Source: Desulfurellales bacterium (GTDB taxonomy: Bacteria > Campylobacterota_A > Desulfurellia > Desulfurellales > Hippeaceae). From it: 34,762 nucleotides of DNA. Positions 1,127 to 7,041 of the stretch are shown here, one piece after another. Each line of letters starts with the position of its first letter. Position 1 is the first letter of the stretch. The notes beneath the pieces were generated by a model. The model made no database searches, was not told where the DNA came from, and saw only the letters and a list, made by a program, of their open reading frames with translations. The stretch lies in contig JALVTR010000083.1 in assembly GCA_027035885.1 (NCBI GenBank), positions 1 to 34,762 on the forward strand. Reading direction: 5' to 3'. The position numbers and the translations under genes are program-made.

Positions 1127-2661
1127 TGTTGAAGCGATTATTAGTCGCTCTAACCTTTGTTTTCTTTTCATACAGCAGCTTTTCTTCCACCGTTTATTTT
1201 TCTTTAGGTGCGAACCCAAAAAGACTTATACCGTTCCTTGCTGTAGATTCATCAAGTGGTGAGATATCGTCTTATATTTTTAATGGTTTGTTAAAATTAG
1301 ATAAAAACATGCATATTGTGGGTGATTTGGCCAAAAGCTACGAGTTTAAAGAAAACGGTAAAATTTTAGTGTTTCATTTGAGAAGGAATGTTTTTTGGCA
1401 GGATGGTAAACCGTTCACGGCGCAAGATGTTATATTCACATACAAGCTTATTACAAATCCTCATACTCCAACCCCTTATTCGGGCAACTATAAAATAATC
1501 AAAAAGATATATGCACCGGATAACTACACTGTCGTTGTTGAGTATCCCTATCCGTTTAGGCCTGCACTCTACTCGTGGATGATGGGTATAGTACCAAAGC
1601 ACTTGCTAAAAGGTGTTAAAAATATTGCCACTTGTGAATTCAACAGAAAGCCTATTGGCACAGGTCCATATATTCTAAAGGATTGGAAAACATCCCAATA
1701 TGTAATCTTAAAGGCGTTTGATAGGTATTTTGTGCATGAGCCTAACATAAACAAAGTGATATATAGGATTATCCCTGATCCGACAACCGCGCTACTTGAG
1801 CTTAAAAACGGTAATTTGGATATGCTAACGCTCTCTCCTTTGCAGTACAAATACGAGTTCGGAAAGAAACAAAGAAAGCGTTATAAAGTATATTTTGAAC
1901 CGTCTGGGAGCTACACGTATTTGGGTTTTAATTTAAGGCTGAAGATGTTTAAGGATGTTAGGATTAGGAAGGCAATATGTGAGGCAATAAATAGAGATGA
2001 GATAAAAAAGGCCATACTGTTTAACTTTGGCGAGGTTGCAGATTGTATTTATCCAGAAAATTCGCCTTATTTTATTGGTAAGACAATTTGTCACTATAAT
2101 CCAAAGGATGCACTCAGGCTTTTAAAAGAAGCTGGCTATACAATAGGTAATGACGGATGGCTTTACAATAAAGATGGTAAAAGGTTTGAATTTACCATTT
2201 ACACAAATGAAGGCAATACAGAAAGAAAGTACGCCGCTATAATGATACAGCAGTATTTAAGGAAGATTGGTATTGATGTGAAAATTAGGATACTTGAATG
2301 GCAAGCGTTTTTGAACTTCGTGAATGAGAGGCACTTTGATGCCGTGATTTTGGGGTGGCAGTTGGGCGCTGATCCCGATCAGTATTCCATTTGGGACTCG
2401 AAGAGCGATTTTAAGGGAGGATTTAACTTCGTAGGTTTTCATGATAGACGTGTTGATAGGTTAATAGAAGAAGCGCGAAGAACTTTTGATAATAGAAAAG
2501 CTAAGAAATTATACCTTGAAATTAACGACTTAATCGTTCACCAATTTCCATACATTTTTTTGTATTATCCAACGGCCATTATTGCTGTTAATAAAAAAAT
2601 CAAAGGGATAAAACCTGCCAAAGCCGGCATAATGTATAACTTTATAGATTGGCAGTATTAG
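1126..2661 (+). CDS. peptide ABC transporter substrate-binding protein (SBP_bac_5 family)
   Basis: Probable periplasmic binding protein of the DppA/OppA family, which delivers di- or oligopeptides (in some members nickel or other solutes) to an ABC importer. The 511-residue length is typical. An N-terminal signal peptide is clear: K3/R4, a hydrophobic core to about residue 15, and a Ser-rich cleavage region. There is no lipobox cysteine, so a soluble periplasmic protein is likely. Family landmarks include the LVFHLRRNVFWQDGKP region and the KPIGTGPYILKDW region. No permease or ATPase gene adjoins it, so it is an orphan component here and its substrate cannot be read from context. Its stop overlaps the convergent ferredoxin gene by 4 bases. 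The family is secure; the substrate is not. Confidence 0.9.
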   Translation: MLKRLLVALTFVFFSYSSFSSTVYFSLGANPKRLIPFLAVDSSSGEISSYIFNGLLKLDKNMHIVGDLAKSYEFKENGKILVFHLRRNVFWQDGKPFTAQDVIFTYKLITNPHTPTPYSGNYKIIKKIYAPDNYTVVVEYPYPFRPALYSWMMGIVPKHLLKGVKNIATCEFNRKPIGTGPYILKDWKTSQYVILKAFDRYFVHEPNINKVIYRIIPDPTTALLELKNGNLDMLTLSPLQYKYEFGKKQRKRYKVYFEPSGSYTYLGFNLRLKMFKDVRIRKAICEAINRDEIKKAILFNFGEVADCIYPENSPYFIGKTICHYNPKDALRLLKEAGYTIGNDGWLYNKDGKRFEFTIYTNEGNTERKYAAIMIQQYLRKIGIDVKIRILEWQAFLNFVNERHFDAVILGWQLGADPDQYSIWDSKSDFKGGFNFVGFHDRRVDRLIEEARRTFDNRKAKKLYLEINDLIVHQFPYIFLYYPTAIIAVNKKIKGIKPAKAGIMYNFIDWQY

Positions 2662-3074
2662 AACTCATCAGGCAGGCTCATAGCTTTTACAGGGCAGACA
2701 TTGACACAATAGCCGCAGGCAATACATCTGTCTTTGAAAAGATCGACTCTCATTGTTTTTCTATCAGTTATGATTAGAGCTTCTGTTGGACAAACTGCAA
2801 CGCAGAAACCGCAGTGATAACAACTGCTCTCATCTCTATTTATACTTTCCTCAACGAAGCTGATAGATACACTATTATCTTTTAAGTATTGAATACCACT
2901 GTTAAAAGAATTTTCTTCCCCAGATATTTCAAGTGTCAATATGCCCTCTTTTCGTGGGAATATGTTTGCCCTCATAATATTGAATGTAAGTTCGAACTTT
3001 TTGCATATATCCGAAACAAGAGGTTTGTCTGCTATCTCTTCTGGAAACCTTAAGACAACCTTTTTTGATATCAT
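2658..3074 (-). CDS. NIL-domain 4Fe-4S ferredoxin (homocysteine-synthesis accessory)
   Basis: A 138-residue protein with an N-terminal NIL domain (about residues 3-75, an ACT-like fold also found in methionine transporter ATPases) and a C-terminal pair of 4Fe-4S clusters. The two cluster motifs are CYHCGFCVAVCP and CIACGYCVNVCP, each CxxCxxCxxxCP. NIL-ferredoxins of this kind are genetically linked with COG1900 proteins in homocysteine synthesis of methanogens and other anaerobes (work of Rauch and Perona). A strong Shine-Dalgarno, AGGAGG, precedes the ATG. It follows the COG2122 gene with an 8-base gap and is last in the operon. An electron-donor role is inferred. Confidence 0.9.
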   Translation of the reverse strand: MISKKVVLRFPEEIADKPLVSDICKKFELTFNIMRANIFPRKEGILTLEISGEENSFNSGIQYLKDNSVSISFVEESINRDESSCYHCGFCVAVCPTEALIITDRKTMRVDLFKDRCIACGYCVNVCPVKAMSLPDEF

Positions 3075-3082
3075 AAATCCTC

Positions 3083-3790
3083 CTAAACCAGCTCTATTTT
3101 TCCCCAGATGCCTATCTTTTTAGCTTTTATAAATAGGCACCCGTCCACGTTTTTACTCTTAGCAAACTCAATTGCGTTTTCTATATCATCTTCGTTTTTT
3201 ATTAAGTTAGCTGTTTTTGTAGCCAAAGCGTCTGCAAAGGCAGTATCCCTGTCAATAATAAGTGACAAATCTGCTTTGCCTAAGCTCAAAGAAGGCCCAA
3301 TTTTTGCACTGGATGAACATACTCCTATTGGAACTTTGGAAATCTTTATTTTTATGCTCAAACTATCCTTAAAGTAATGGTTTTGCGTGTATAGGCCGAC
3401 TACTGGTTCTGTGTTGAGTTTTAAAAAAACATCGCCGCCGTTTTCCACCACACACTCATTACACTCTTTCAAAAGCAACTGGCCAACTTCTTTTGCTATT
3501 GCACCTGCCACAGCTGCCATAGGCCCAACATCTGCCTTTCTTGATGACTCTATCATTTTTTTTGCTATCTTAGGGGCTTTTTTGTCCTGTCTTATAGGTT
3601 CCAGGGATGTTAGAAAACCCCTATTTTTTTCAATGTAAGTCAAAAGATCACTCCATAGCTTTTTAACTAACTCGAAGGTTTCAAACCTTAAATCCTTGCA
3701 AGCCTTGACGAATAGGTTTGTGCTTTTGTATGTTGTTTCCCAACTTTCGAAGCCATTTAGTTTAAATCTTTCCCTATAGATTCTTTTCAT
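3083..3790 (-). CDS. UPF0280 family protein (COG2122, ApbE-like fold)
   Basis: A 235-residue member of UPF0280/COG2122, distantly related to ApbE flavin transferases. Family landmarks seen are GPMAAVAGAIAKEVG near residue 89, the ENGGDVFLKL motif near 116, a Ser-rich segment (GVCSSSAKIG) and the C-terminal DTAFADALATKTANL motif. COG2122 proteins co-occur with COG1900 and NIL-ferredoxins and have been implicated with them in homocysteine formation in anaerobes; the exact chemistry is not settled. The gene overlaps the end of the COG1900 gene by 17 bases and lacks a strong ribosome site of its own, suggesting translational coupling. Family assignment is solid and the function is inferred mainly from the cluster. 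Confidence 0.87.
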   Translation of the reverse strand: MKRIYRERFKLNGFESWETTYKSTNLFVKACKDLRFETFELVKKLWSDLLTYIEKNRGFLTSLEPIRQDKKAPKIAKKMIESSRKADVGPMAAVAGAIAKEVGQLLLKECNECVVENGGDVFLKLNTEPVVGLYTQNHYFKDSLSIKIKISKVPIGVCSSSAKIGPSLSLGKADLSLIIDRDTAFADALATKTANLIKNEDDIENAIEFAKSKNVDGCLFIKAKKIGIWGKIELV

Positions 3791-4985
3791 ACTTCTTTAA
3801 GTACTTAAGTGGTTCGTAATCCCCAGATTGTGGTAGGGATACAGATGGCTTTGTTAAAAAGAATTTTTTGTCCAAAATCCACTGTTTTAATGTTTCTGAG
3901 ATTTTTATTGCGCCACTGTAGCTACTTAATGGTGCTGTTGGCACCTTTTTCCCGTTTATTGTTATAAAACCACTCTTTAACTTCTTGTAGTTTGTTAATC
4001 CATAGGTGTTGTCAATTTTTAATGGATAATCATGTCCGTAATCAAAGATGTAGGCATCTATCTCCTCATCGCTAACAGAGCTGAAAAAGGCGATTTCTTC
4101 GTTTAAAATCGGTATAGGTATGCCCAAGCCAACGCTTAAAGAAACGCCATATCCTAAAATCGATGCACCTTTGATAAAATCTGCATTCATCTGTTTCATA
4201 TTACCTAAAACGGCTAAAGCCCCTGCACCGGTTTTCGGAACTCCCCTTTCATTGCGCTCCTCATTAGGATTGTGTTGAGTCCCATGCCATATCACATAAC
4301 CAATACCACCGCCCAAAAAAATGCGTGTTCCTATACCGATTGTTAGGTAAAATGGGTCATTGAGTAATGGGGATAGTTGTCCTGCTGAAGAGTATGTTGC
4401 ATTTGAAAAACGGGGTTTTAAGACACCCATGTATGTGTAGATCGTTTTGTCCGTTGAGTTTGTGGCCACAGAGTAGTTTTGGTAAGCGTTTCTCGGGTTA
4501 AGCAAAGTAGCCTCCCTCAAGTCATCAATAAATATCTCCATCTCTATTCTTTTGGCTGGATAGCAATCGGTTCCGTAGCCTTCAGCTACCAACCTGACAG
4601 GTTTTCTTGCAATGAGATCCTCAATAACATGACCACCACCGTACTCAAATCTGCCTGGGTGGACAGCATTTAGTGGGTCGCCTTTCTTTACCGCTGATGC
4701 ACCTATGTATAAATCCACGGCTGCCAAGGAACCATATGCTTCAACGTCATTTAACCAAACTTTGGCTGCCTTAATTTTTGGTGCGGTATGGCCGAAGTTT
4801 AAAAGTGCTCCGCTTGAGCACATTGTCCCAAATGTGCCTGTTGTTACAACATCGACCTTTTTTGCTGCCTCAACCGTACCGTTTTTTCTTACAATATCAA
4901 TCATTTCTTCCGCGTTAACAACAACTGCTTCACCATGTTTTATTTTATAGTTTATCTCTTCAATGGTTTTGTTGACTTTGAACAC
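3774..4985 (-). CDS. homocysteine biosynthesis protein (COG1900/DUF39)
   Basis: COG1900/DUF39 proteins are required, in methanogens and probably other anaerobes, to convert aspartate semialdehyde and sulfide into homocysteine without O-acyl-homoserine. The 403-residue product has the two expected cysteines: C56 in GTFGTMCSSG and C141 in EGYGTDCYPAKR. It also has Gly-rich family segments (FLGGGIGYVIWHGTQHNP, VPKTGAGALAVLGNMKQM). Some archaeal relatives carry C-terminal CBS domains; none is visible here. The start is GTG, preceded at 5 bases by a strong Shine-Dalgarno (AAAAGGAGGT on the minus strand). It heads a three-gene unit with COG2122 and NIL-ferredoxin, which is the strongest functional support. 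Confidence 0.9.
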   Translation of the reverse strand: MFKVNKTIEEINYKIKHGEAVVVNAEEMIDIVRKNGTVEAAKKVDVVTTGTFGTMCSSGALLNFGHTAPKIKAAKVWLNDVEAYGSLAAVDLYIGASAVKKGDPLNAVHPGRFEYGGGHVIEDLIARKPVRLVAEGYGTDCYPAKRIEMEIFIDDLREATLLNPRNAYQNYSVATNSTDKTIYTYMGVLKPRFSNATYSSAGQLSPLLNDPFYLTIGIGTRIFLGGGIGYVIWHGTQHNPNEERNERGVPKTGAGALAVLGNMKQMNADFIKGASILGYGVSLSVGLGIPIPILNEEIAFFSSVSDEEIDAYIFDYGHDYPLKIDNTYGLTNYKKLKSGFITINGKKVPTAPLSSYSGAIKISETLKQWILDKKFFLTKPSVSLPQSGDYEPLKYLKKYEKNL

Positions 4986-5015
4986 CGTAAACCTCCTTTT
5001 GCGTATTGGGAAAAA

Positions 5016-5044
5016 CGAATAGCATTAAAATTGCTTGGCGTCAA
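5016..5044 (-). promoter_or_regulatory. sigma-70-type promoter for the homocysteine cluster
   Basis: On the minus strand, TTGACG (5039-5044) is followed after exactly 17 bases by TATTCG (5016-5021), preceded by TGC, giving an extended -10 (TGn). Transcription would begin near 5009, leaving a leader of about 24 bases with the AAAAGGAGGT ribosome site at 4991-5000. The leader is too short for a known riboswitch. The -35 begins about five bases past the nuclease-gene stop, so read-through from the restriction operon is also possible. Confidence 0.55.
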
Positions 5045-5049
5045 TATTT

Positions 5050-5652
5050 TTATTCTTTAAACTTAGCTACGAGATATTCTGGTATAGTTATTTTTAAGCC
5101 GTCGTTGGTTTTTTGATAATAGATTATGCATACCTCAATTTGTTCTGATAGCATTTTCTTGGAAGTGTAGCTTGATGGTTTTAGACTTACTGGTATTTCT
5201 CCTATATAACCATCGATGCCTTTGCTTTCCTCTTTTGGATTTGCTAATTTGTAGGTGGTGTTAAATTTTTCAGAGATTTTCTTCAGTACAGCTTCTTGAA
5301 ATTTTAAACCAATGTATGTTTTTACTATTATTAAATCGTACGACCATTTTTGCACCATTTCTCCATCGATTTTGTTTATAGCATGTTTAAGGTTATTGAT
5401 CATGTTTAATATTTTGTTGGTAGCGTTTTCAATAGCATTCGAGTGTTTTTCTAAGTACCATTCTTCCCAATCTTTGATGGTTCTACCTTTAAATTCCTTA
5501 ATAAGCTCGCTCATTTTACCCACTGTTGGTGGTCTTGTAGCTTGTGAATTTTGATTGGCTAAATTTAGAATTTGTGTTGTGTATTTAGGAAACTTAGGAG
5601 ACTCAATACCCATTAATTTGCGTATTTCTTTTGTTTTTAACTTAAGCTCCAT
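5050..5652 (-). CDS. type II restriction endonuclease, MjaI-like
   Basis: A 200-residue protein resembling the MjaI family (RE_MjaI), whose archaeal prototype cuts CTAG. Conserved-looking stretches are FPKYTTQILNLANQN near residue 21 and GIDGYIGEIPVSLKP at 145-159. In the latter, D147 and the S156-L157-K158 triplet could form a PD-(D/E)xK-type site, with E120 as a further acidic candidate. It directly follows and overlaps by 16 bases a DNA methyltransferase gene on the same strand, the normal layout of a type II pair. The family assignment comes from recalled similarity and partner context; CTAG specificity is inference, supported by near absence of CTAG in the window. Lysine- and isoleucine-rich coding suggests possible acquisition by transfer. 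Confidence 0.72.
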   Translation of the reverse strand: MELKLKTKEIRKLMGIESPKFPKYTTQILNLANQNSQATRPPTVGKMSELIKEFKGRTIKDWEEWYLEKHSNAIENATNKILNMINNLKHAINKIDGEMVQKWSYDLIIVKTYIGLKFQEAVLKKISEKFNTTYKLANPKEESKGIDGYIGEIPVSLKPSSYTSKKMLSEQIEVCIIYYQKTNDGLKITIPEYLVAKFKE

Positions 5653-6938
5653 TTAGATATTTCCTTTTTATATGGTTTTTCCTTCAATTCTTCTATATTT
5701 TTGAGGCTGTTTTCCATAGCTATGAATTTTTCCTTTAAGTCGTAATTTAGGTTTCTTTCGGCTATTGCATAGCCATTCTTTATCAGGTATGAATTTATGA
5801 AGATTTTGTTTTTCAAATAAACGTACGCTTCTGTACTATTTTTTTCTTCTTCAACGTATTCTTTATCGAATTTTAAGTATACATCCTTTTTGAGAATATA
5901 TTTCTTTAAATAGCTCATTGTCCCGTAAAGGTTGACAATTACAAGACCCCTAAATTTTACAATCAAACCTGTATTGAGCAAAAGTCTGGCATCATCAAGT
6001 ATATCGATAACCTTGTAACCTTCATTTTTTCTAAAGTTCAACTTTTTTGGATCCATAATTGGTTTAGCATCCTTAATGATGGGTTTATAGTTTATTTCCT
6101 CCACGGATACTTTAAAATCTCTCTTTGTGAGTTCAATTTTTTTTTGGGGTTCTATAATTTTGGTACTTTTTATCTTTTTCATAATTATTTCTGAAAAATC
6201 CTCGTTAATTTCATATCCAATGAAGTTTCTTTTGAGTTCCAATGCAACCTTTGCAGTTGTTCCACTACCCAAAAACGGATCCAATACGGTTTCGCCAATG
6301 AATGTAAACATCTTTATTATTCTTTTAGGGAGTTCCTCGGGGAACATTGCTTCATGCTCTATTTGCTTTGTCCCTCCGAAGGTCCAGTGTCCAAAAAAAA
6401 ATTCTTTCCATTCCTCTTTTGTTAGCTTCGATTTTTCTTTTATATCTTTAGATACTTTTTTGCTTTTTCCTGGCTTTTTAAATATAAGTATATATTCGTA
6501 GTCTATTTCAACCATACCATTAGGTGGATAAGGGTAGGAGCCCATAACATTGGCTCCGCCTGTTGTGTTCATGGTCGTTTTCTTTTGCCATATGATAGAA
6601 CCCATATAATCAAATCCTATATCTTCACATTGTGCAATAATCTCCGCATGCAAGGGTATAATTTTATATCTTCCGTATACTATGGATCTTGCAAATTGGT
6701 CCCCTATATTTATGATAAACCTCCTTCCTGGTTCTAAAACCCTAAACGATTCTTTCCATACTCTGTATAAATCCTTAAGATATTCATGAAGGCTTTGACC
6801 ATAGCCAATTTGGTTTTTTGATTTGTAGTCTTTTATTGACCAATAGGGAGGAGATGTAACAATGAGATGTATAAAGTTATCTTTTATCTCTATCATCTTT
6901 CTGCTGTCACCTATGATTATTTTGGCTCGACTTTCCAT
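5637..6938 (-). CDS. DNA methyltransferase (beta-class, SPPYW) with degenerate SNase-like C-terminal domain
   Basis: Amino-methyltransferase protecting host DNA against the neighbouring nuclease. Motif IV, TSPPYW (residues 28-33), precedes the AdoMet-binding motif I, DPFLGSGTT (220-228), the order of beta-class N4-cytosine/N6-adenine enzymes; SPPYW favours N4-cytosine but is not proof. The catalytic part ends near 260. After a Lys-rich linker, residues about 307-433 resemble a staphylococcal-nuclease (TNase) fold: KVIDI, the KFRG strand and the AYVYLKN...INSYLIKNGYAIAE segment. Equivalents of nuclease residues D40, E43 and R87 appear replaced, although R330 may match R35. A binding or target-recognition role is therefore more likely than cleavage. 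The gene holds two 9-base homopolymer runs. At 433 residues it is longer than a minimal beta-class enzyme because of this tail. Confidence 0.9.
   Translation of the reverse strand: MESRAKIIIGDSRKMIEIKDNFIHLIVTSPPYWSIKDYKSKNQIGYGQSLHEYLKDLYRVWKESFRVLEPGRRFIINIGDQFARSIVYGRYKIIPLHAEIIAQCEDIGFDYMGSIIWQKKTTMNTTGGANVMGSYPYPPNGMVEIDYEYILIFKKPGKSKKVSKDIKEKSKLTKEEWKEFFFGHWTFGGTKQIEHEAMFPEELPKRIIKMFTFIGETVLDPFLGSGTTAKVALELKRNFIGYEINEDFSEIIMKKIKSTKIIEPQKKIELTKRDFKVSVEEINYKPIIKDAKPIMDPKKLNFRKNEGYKVIDILDDARLLLNTGLIVKFRGLVIVNLYGTMSYLKKYILKKDVYLKFDKEYVEEEKNSTEAYVYLKNKIFINSYLIKNGYAIAERNLNYDLKEKFIAMENSLKNIEELKEKPYKKEISKWSLS
6137..6145 (-). repeat. A9 homopolymer tract in the methyltransferase linker
   Basis: Nine consecutive T on the plus strand (A9 in the coding strand) fall at codons for P-Q-K-K, between the catalytic and SNase-like domains. 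Slippage by one base would remove only the C-terminal domain. Confidence 0.7.
6393..6401 (-). repeat. T9 homopolymer tract in the methyltransferase catalytic domain
   Basis: Nine consecutive A on the plus strand (T9 in the coding strand) encode F180-F181-F182. Slippage here would truncate the enzyme before motif I and inactivate it. By eye these two are the only 9-base single-nucleotide runs noticed in the window; several 7- and 8-base runs occur elsewhere. Confidence 0.7.
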
Positions 6939-6959
6939 ACTCGCCCCTTTTTGTTGATA

Positions 6960-6988
6960 AGTTTACAATTTATTTTTCTTTCAAGCAA
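6960..6988 (-). promoter_or_regulatory. promoter for the restriction-modification operon
   Basis: On the minus strand, TTGCTT (6983-6988) is followed after 17 bases by TAAACT (6960-6965), upstream of the methyltransferase ATG at 6938. The ribosome site (GGGGCGAG) is weak. The same -10 hexamer, TAAACT, appears in the promoter of the long operon at 18873. It is divergent from the yggS promoter. Confidence 0.45.
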
Positions 6989-7013
6989 GTTTTGAGAAAA
7001 TGCATCTTTGTAA

Positions 7014-7041
7014 TTGAAAAGAATAGTTTTTGTGTTATACT
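7014..7041 (+). promoter_or_regulatory. extended -10 promoter for the NAD-salvage operon
   Basis: TTGAAA (7014-7019), a 16-base spacer, then TATACT (7036-7041) preceded by TGT, giving an extended -10. Transcription should start near 7048. This rules out an in-frame TTG at 7030 as the gene start, because it lies in or upstream of the promoter. It supports the ATG at 7063, which has AGAGGTG at 7051-7057 as its ribosome site. Confidence 0.6.

Follow-up and report, generated by a model that had tools for sequence, protein, structure and literature searches.

A degenerate staphylococcal-nuclease-like domain fused to the predicted methylase of a MjaI-type restriction-modification system

The 34,762-nt stretch of DNA analysed here (the window) encodes a methyltransferase, M, that we assign from its sequence and neighbourhood as the modification half of a MjaI-type Type II restriction-modification system. 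Its C-terminal domain has the predicted fold of staphylococcal nuclease (SNase), with the catalytic site lost. We give about an even chance to the reading in which this dead SNase is an accessory module that helps the methylase in cis, most likely as a DNA clamp. The initial annotation had described the fusion and missed its membership in a restriction-modification system. The features of the locus are collected in Table 1.

Table 1. Features of the M-R locus, with positions in the window and the supporting evidence.
Feature	Position	Strand	Evidence
M gene (433 aa), beta-class DNA methyltransferase ending in an SNase-like domain	5637..6938	-	
Methyltransferase core, residues 1-256	6171..6938	-	PF01555 3.5e-48; fold match to TTHA0409, Z 25.8
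Linker, residues 257-301, partly conserved (P286, D290, P297, K299)	6036..6170	-	
Degenerate SNase-like domain, residues 302-417 (116 residues)	5688..6035	-	Profile, model, alignment
R gene (200 aa), restriction endonuclease of the MjaI family, lying downstream of M	5050..5652	-	PF09568 1.6e-66
Inserted M-R cassette, approximate	4986..7026	.	Congener similarity ends at 4985 and begins again near 7027 (the second boundary visible in 2 of 5 aligned empty sites)

The methylase core is covered by the Pfam model for N6/N4 DNA methylases (PF01555) from residue 23 to residue 254. It carries the motifs TSPPY (28-32) and DPFLGSGTT (220-228), an order that we take to be that of the beta class. The beta-class recognition region (residues ~117-200) sits within the core and is almost invariant across the family, and CcrM is among the fold matches of the core in structural comparison. 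An AlphaFold2 model of full-length M, built with an alignment of 74 relatives, reached a pLDDT of 80.8, with residues 302-417 well predicted. The M and R genes overlap by 16 nt (5637-5652), so that a PF09568 endonuclease (R, P0002) directly adjoins a beta-class N6/N4 methylase (P0001), the arrangement that places the pair among MjaI-type Type II systems. Plasmid pFZ1 encodes a MjaI-family endonuclease, which we take to be R.MthZI, and R shares 51% identity with it over 182 positions. The title of a cited reference describes MthZI as CTAG-recognizing, and M.MthZI appears in PMC5867850 as a characterised 4mC CTAG methylase. CTAG is therefore probably the target of the window system, by homology only, and N4-cytosine is probably the methylated base.

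We also considered CTAG avoidance as evidence of specificity. The window contains 3 CTAG sites where 70 are expected, but the observed-to-expected ratio is equally low in three congeners without the system (0.02, 0.05 and 0.03) and in one with it (0.02). Since system-less congeners are just as CTAG-poor, the depletion says nothing about the window system and was rejected as an argument. Near absence of CTAG is a genus-wide trait (ratio 0.02-0.05 in the window and loci L278-L293), and ACGT, too, is extremely scarce in certain congeners (0.02 in G008, 0.04 in G005).

The M-R cassette is mobile. It is absent between the same divergent flanking genes, one DUF39-like and one YggS-like, in 8/8 congeneric genomes (9/9 loci), and one congener with an empty site (G008) carries its own copy of the cassette elsewhere. 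No target-site duplication was noticed by eye at the cassette ends.

The reading frame and the motifs reported by the initial annotation are present as described: KVIDI at 309-313, KFRG at 328-331, AYVYLKN at 371-377 and NGYAIAE at 388-394, within residues 307-433 (5640-6020, reverse strand). The SNase pattern that it proposed for this tail is borne out by profile and model alike. The SNase profile PF00565, whose cut-off is 21 bits, scores 21.3 bits against full-length M, where it covers residues 343-410, and 24.2 bits against the isolated tail; it also matches 58 of the 74 aligned relatives at E<=0.01. Modelled separately by AlphaFold2 with the alignment of 74 relatives, the tail has a pLDDT of 89.2 and a pTM of 0.81 and displays the OB-fold barrel and helices of SNase; a structure unlike that barrel, the outcome named in advance as refuting the idea, was not obtained. 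Foldseek retrieves SNase from the PDB with the tail model (E 4e-6), and VIA-align superimposes the two over 108 residues with Z 12.5-13.1 and an rmsd of 2.3-2.4 Å. In the predicted structure, the C-terminal domain of M is thus confirmed as a staphylococcal-nuclease fold on a beta-class methyltransferase. The first family alignment had 77 rows, four cut or frameshifted members (L030, L063, L065, L073) having been dropped beforehand; L015, L018 and L066 were further left out of A1/A2.

To map the catalytic residues, 121 distinct family members were aligned with 10 canonical SNases, one of them from the same genome. Added members needed, within a single frame, more than 350 bits for the core and more than 60 for the domain, and L084 and L086-L088 were added by hand. 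Fragments and the masked L141 were not included, nor were L295 and L296, which came later and have domains of only 21-29 bits. Residues D21, R35, D40, E43, R87 and N100 follow what we take to be the conventional SNase numbering. In the window protein D21 corresponds to A317, R35 to K328, D40 to V333 and R87 to S368, while E43 falls in an alignment gap, so that 0/5 are kept. The hand alignment of the initial annotation was correct in placing valine at D40 and serine at R87, but not in placing tyrosine at E43. Across the family, no catalytic residue is kept in 79 members, one in 36, two in 5 and three in 1, compared with 4-5 of 5 in the canonical SNases. The position of R35 is lysine in 76/121 and arginine in 33/121, and that of E43 is a gap in 77/121, with the glutamate kept in 2/121. 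The description of the domain as dead holds family-wide, and judged from these alignments the nuclease catalytic site is lost throughout. Relics persist in a few members (R87 in L086, L151 and L167), which fits descent from an active nuclease. Other positions are strongly conserved: N377, which is family-specific, and N382, the counterpart of SNase N100, are each present in 121/121, and K/R occupies position 378 in 116/121. K/R at 378 and 387 is specific to the family and non-canonical, whereas G331, N382 and Y372 are fold positions common to canonical SNases. The domain has a median net charge of +7 (range +1 to +18 in the 121 members; +6 in the window).

A survey of such fusions, as the initial annotation had proposed, found the same M in many bacterial and archaeal phyla. 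A collection scan retained 80/166 loci, which by their record titles come from archaea and many bacterial phyla. The domain profile matched 5/25 genomes of the window's own phylum and, at E<=1e-18, 26/392 genomes of an archaeal phylum sample. Searching 395 Bacteroidota genomes with the core alone gave 55 complete cores. For 52 of these the domain lies on the same contig, and in G790:C5, one of the 52, it is split off from the core by a stop codon. In a further phylum (that of G027, 377 genomes) the core query matched three sequences strongly; each still has a recognisable tail, which in two cases is very degenerate. When 85 cores were placed in a tree, a single supported group (80 rows, 98/95) took in every fusion together with one phage-like sequence. 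PF00565 itself is common, with at least 146 of 294 genomes of one archaeal phylum matched, yet an incomplete inspection by eye of 15 long-frame non-family matches from that phylum revealed no other methylase-SNase fusion: the clean frames resemble canonical SNases that are secreted and frequently contain additional repeats, and a few frames look spurious.

The association with R is tight but not obligatory. Among 136 domain loci, found via the domain or the whole protein, 125 have at least 700 nt downstream, and 113 of these contain a MjaI-family R, accepted anywhere in the locus; the other 12 do not. The 113 comprise 25 of type A, the window-like subfamily, and 88 of a second subfamily, type B. 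These labels switch repeatedly on the M core tree, type A at least five times by supported branches. For the R-less fusions, 12/12 genomes are without any PF09568 gene. In one R-less locus (L019, 2798-4602, forward strand) an EcoRV-type R (PF09233) adjoins the fusion methylase, with McrB/McrC-like genes around it by eye. This R was rejected as a partner because, by eye, it has its own adjacent methylase, and we treat the L019 fusion as solitary.

Between close pairs, dN/dS, obtained by simple counting with synonymous sites often near saturation, is mostly 0.06-0.25 for the domain and 0.01-0.07 for the core. These sequence comparisons indicate that the domain is under purifying selection; the initial annotation had remarked on a degraded nuclease fold fused to a modification enzyme, and that fusion is retained under selection across a large family. 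Natural variants nevertheless suggest that the domain is dispensable for the methylase fold. A core-only relative of 287 aa that lacks the SNase domain (L172, 3989-4852, forward strand) is encoded on a 147-kb phage-like contig of IMG/VR (IMGVR_UViG_3300035698_017111), which also carries sigma factor, clamp, clamp-loader and RuvC-like genes. This relative keeps 78/86 family-invariant core positions, and 30/32 in the recognition region. L172 lies on a long branch inside the family, and since its placement is not fully supported (92/81), domain loss and ancestral absence are both possible. An upstream ORF on the same contig (902-2995) encodes a 697-aa methylase that appears by eye to be interrupted by an intein. 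In two Bacteroidota (G573:C22, L300; G692:C52, L301) the methylase frame ends at the same point, just before the domain, and in G1096 and G1104 the domain is strongly degenerate (29 and 21 bits); genome-wide searches found no PF09568 gene in any of these four. A supported R-less clade (L064/L072/L074/L080/L081) includes two domains that have drifted beyond expectation (L080 and L081, residual z -3.1 and -3.3) and three that have drifted slightly (residual z -1.1 to -1.3), and several R-less fusions keep the domain at normal conservation. R is present in 18/21 full Bacteroidota fusions with enough flank and in 0/2 domain-less cores (Fisher p 0.04, or 0.003 once two degenerate members of another phylum join the domain-less cores), in a tiny sample that ignores kinship, leaves out the R-linked L299 and includes metagenome bins; several of the surveyed genomes are incomplete bins. 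L299 (G771:C84:4300-7500; 340-1734 forward, 1782-3171 reverse) adjoins two tandem PF09568 genes and joins the family core and linker to an unrelated C-terminal domain, which has no Pfam match, PDB matches only at E 0.085 or worse and no plasmid relative.

What the domain does can be approached through these variants. Beta-class methylases such as CcrM are known to have C-terminal DNA-binding extensions, and by that analogy the domain might itself recognise the target and set sequence specificity, one of the alternatives raised by the initial annotation ("target-recognition module"). We regard this as improbable: the near-invariant recognition region lies inside the core and is kept by the domain-less L172, and the domain is more variable than the core, the opposite of what a reader of a shared specificity should be. 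That the domain still cuts nucleic acid through a non-canonical site seems to us hardly credible. The fold is intact and L127 retains three catalytic residues (D21, R35 and D40), but 0/121 members keep all five and E43 is almost always lost.

The main rival reading, unlikely in our estimate, is a structural one, in which the domain supports dimerisation or stabilises the methylase without touching DNA. It fits the conservation pattern, in which most of the conserved sites belong to the fold and recur in canonical SNases, as well as the origin of many carriers, going by record titles, in thermophilic groups; against it stand the invariant N377 and the basic residues at 378 and 387, which are peculiar to this family, and the abundance of the family in the Bacteroidota sample. 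A regulatory role, with the domain docking on R or binding an operator and repressing the M-R operon, would account for the tight linkage to R and for the loss or strong decay of the domain in genomes without R. We think it a rather poor prospect, for two divergent R subfamilies share one M family, R-less systems keep the domain, and no shared operator emerged: the regions upstream of 22 type A and 45 type B systems yielded no common motif indicative of autoregulation, the commonest 8-mer occurring in only 5/22 and 9/45, respectively.

We favour the domain as an exchangeable accessory module acting in cis. It does not appear to set specificity, it occurs with more than one kind of R, and R-less systems retain it, so that action on the methylase itself is most likely; the pairing of one M family with two divergent R subfamilies, together with the R-less fusions, likewise speaks for action in cis rather than docking on R. 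The N-terminal 256 residues would recognise and methylate the target, and the C-terminal 116 residues, derived from a nuclease of the staphylococcal type whose catalytic site was lost, would be kept as a helper. Fold ancestry and positive charge favour an auxiliary DNA contact, although canonical SNases range from -5 to +15 (n=10), which makes the charge argument weak. DNA binding by the domain is plausible from its sequence, and its likeliest role would be a second contact beside the target. Such a clamp might bring modification to the completeness that a cell needs when R is present too, an effect that we infer. A link to restriction is favoured by the lack of PF09568 genes in the two Bacteroidota genomes with domain-less cores and in the two genomes with very degenerate domains. 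Retention in R-less systems means that R is not required for the domain to be kept, and a clamp tied to R is further opposed by the R-linked L299 with its unrelated domain and by the pFZ1 M without an SNase match. A bolder version, in which a widespread and ancient class of restriction-modification methylases took over a nuclease and made of it an exchangeable C-terminal safety clamp that completes modification beside R, can be replaced, and was shed or decayed in some R-less lineages and phages, is conceivable but unlikely.

Eukaryotic Tudor-SN proteins are the best-known bearers of pseudo-nuclease SNase folds; in the present family such a fold sits on a common bacterial and archaeal methylase, and its recurrence in many bacteria and archaea suggests an old nuclease turned into a helper part. 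The natural variants (core-only, truncated, swapped and R-less) amount to nature's own test of the contribution made by an accessory domain, and they bear on why R-paired methylases differ from solitary ones. No description of a methylase-SNase fusion was found in the literature searched, whose reach excluded most subscription papers and took in PMC5867850, PMC4752239, PMC3488263, PMC7641849 and PMC6471742.

The architecture is already implicit in databases, because a PADLOC model spans M alongside the Pfam matches: PDLC03259 (MTase_II), with 423 positions, covers residues 5-406, although its label reads only Type II methyltransferase and does not mention the SNase domain. The nearest solved structure to the core is the putative modification methylase TTHA0409 of Thermus (PDB 2zie), 34% identical over 224 residues, which differs in having 297 aa and in a phmmer match confined to query residues 7-253. 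The pFZ1 M, read as M.MthZI, likewise belongs to the beta class (34% across 283 aligned positions) and is paired with a similar R, but it has 355 aa and no SNase match; PMC5867850 gives 303-364 aa for M.MthZI, M.BfaI, M.MjaI and HVO_0794, compared with 433 aa for the window protein. The C-terminal domain resembles staphylococcal nuclease (PF00565) in fold and in the signature [A/C]Y.YL...N..L...G.A, and departs from it in lacking D21, D40, E43 and R87, in having mostly lysine for R35 and in being fused to a methylase. The top match in structural comparison is the extended Tudor domain of SND1 (Tudor-SN), with Z 13.7, within 1 of SNase. The catalytic residues of SND1 are lost according to PMC7641849, and both proteins present a degenerate SNase fold serving purposes other than cutting. 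The M domain differs from Tudor-SN in having no inserted Tudor (about 116 residues in total, 104 of them aligned to the 216-residue chain) and in its prokaryotic methylase context.
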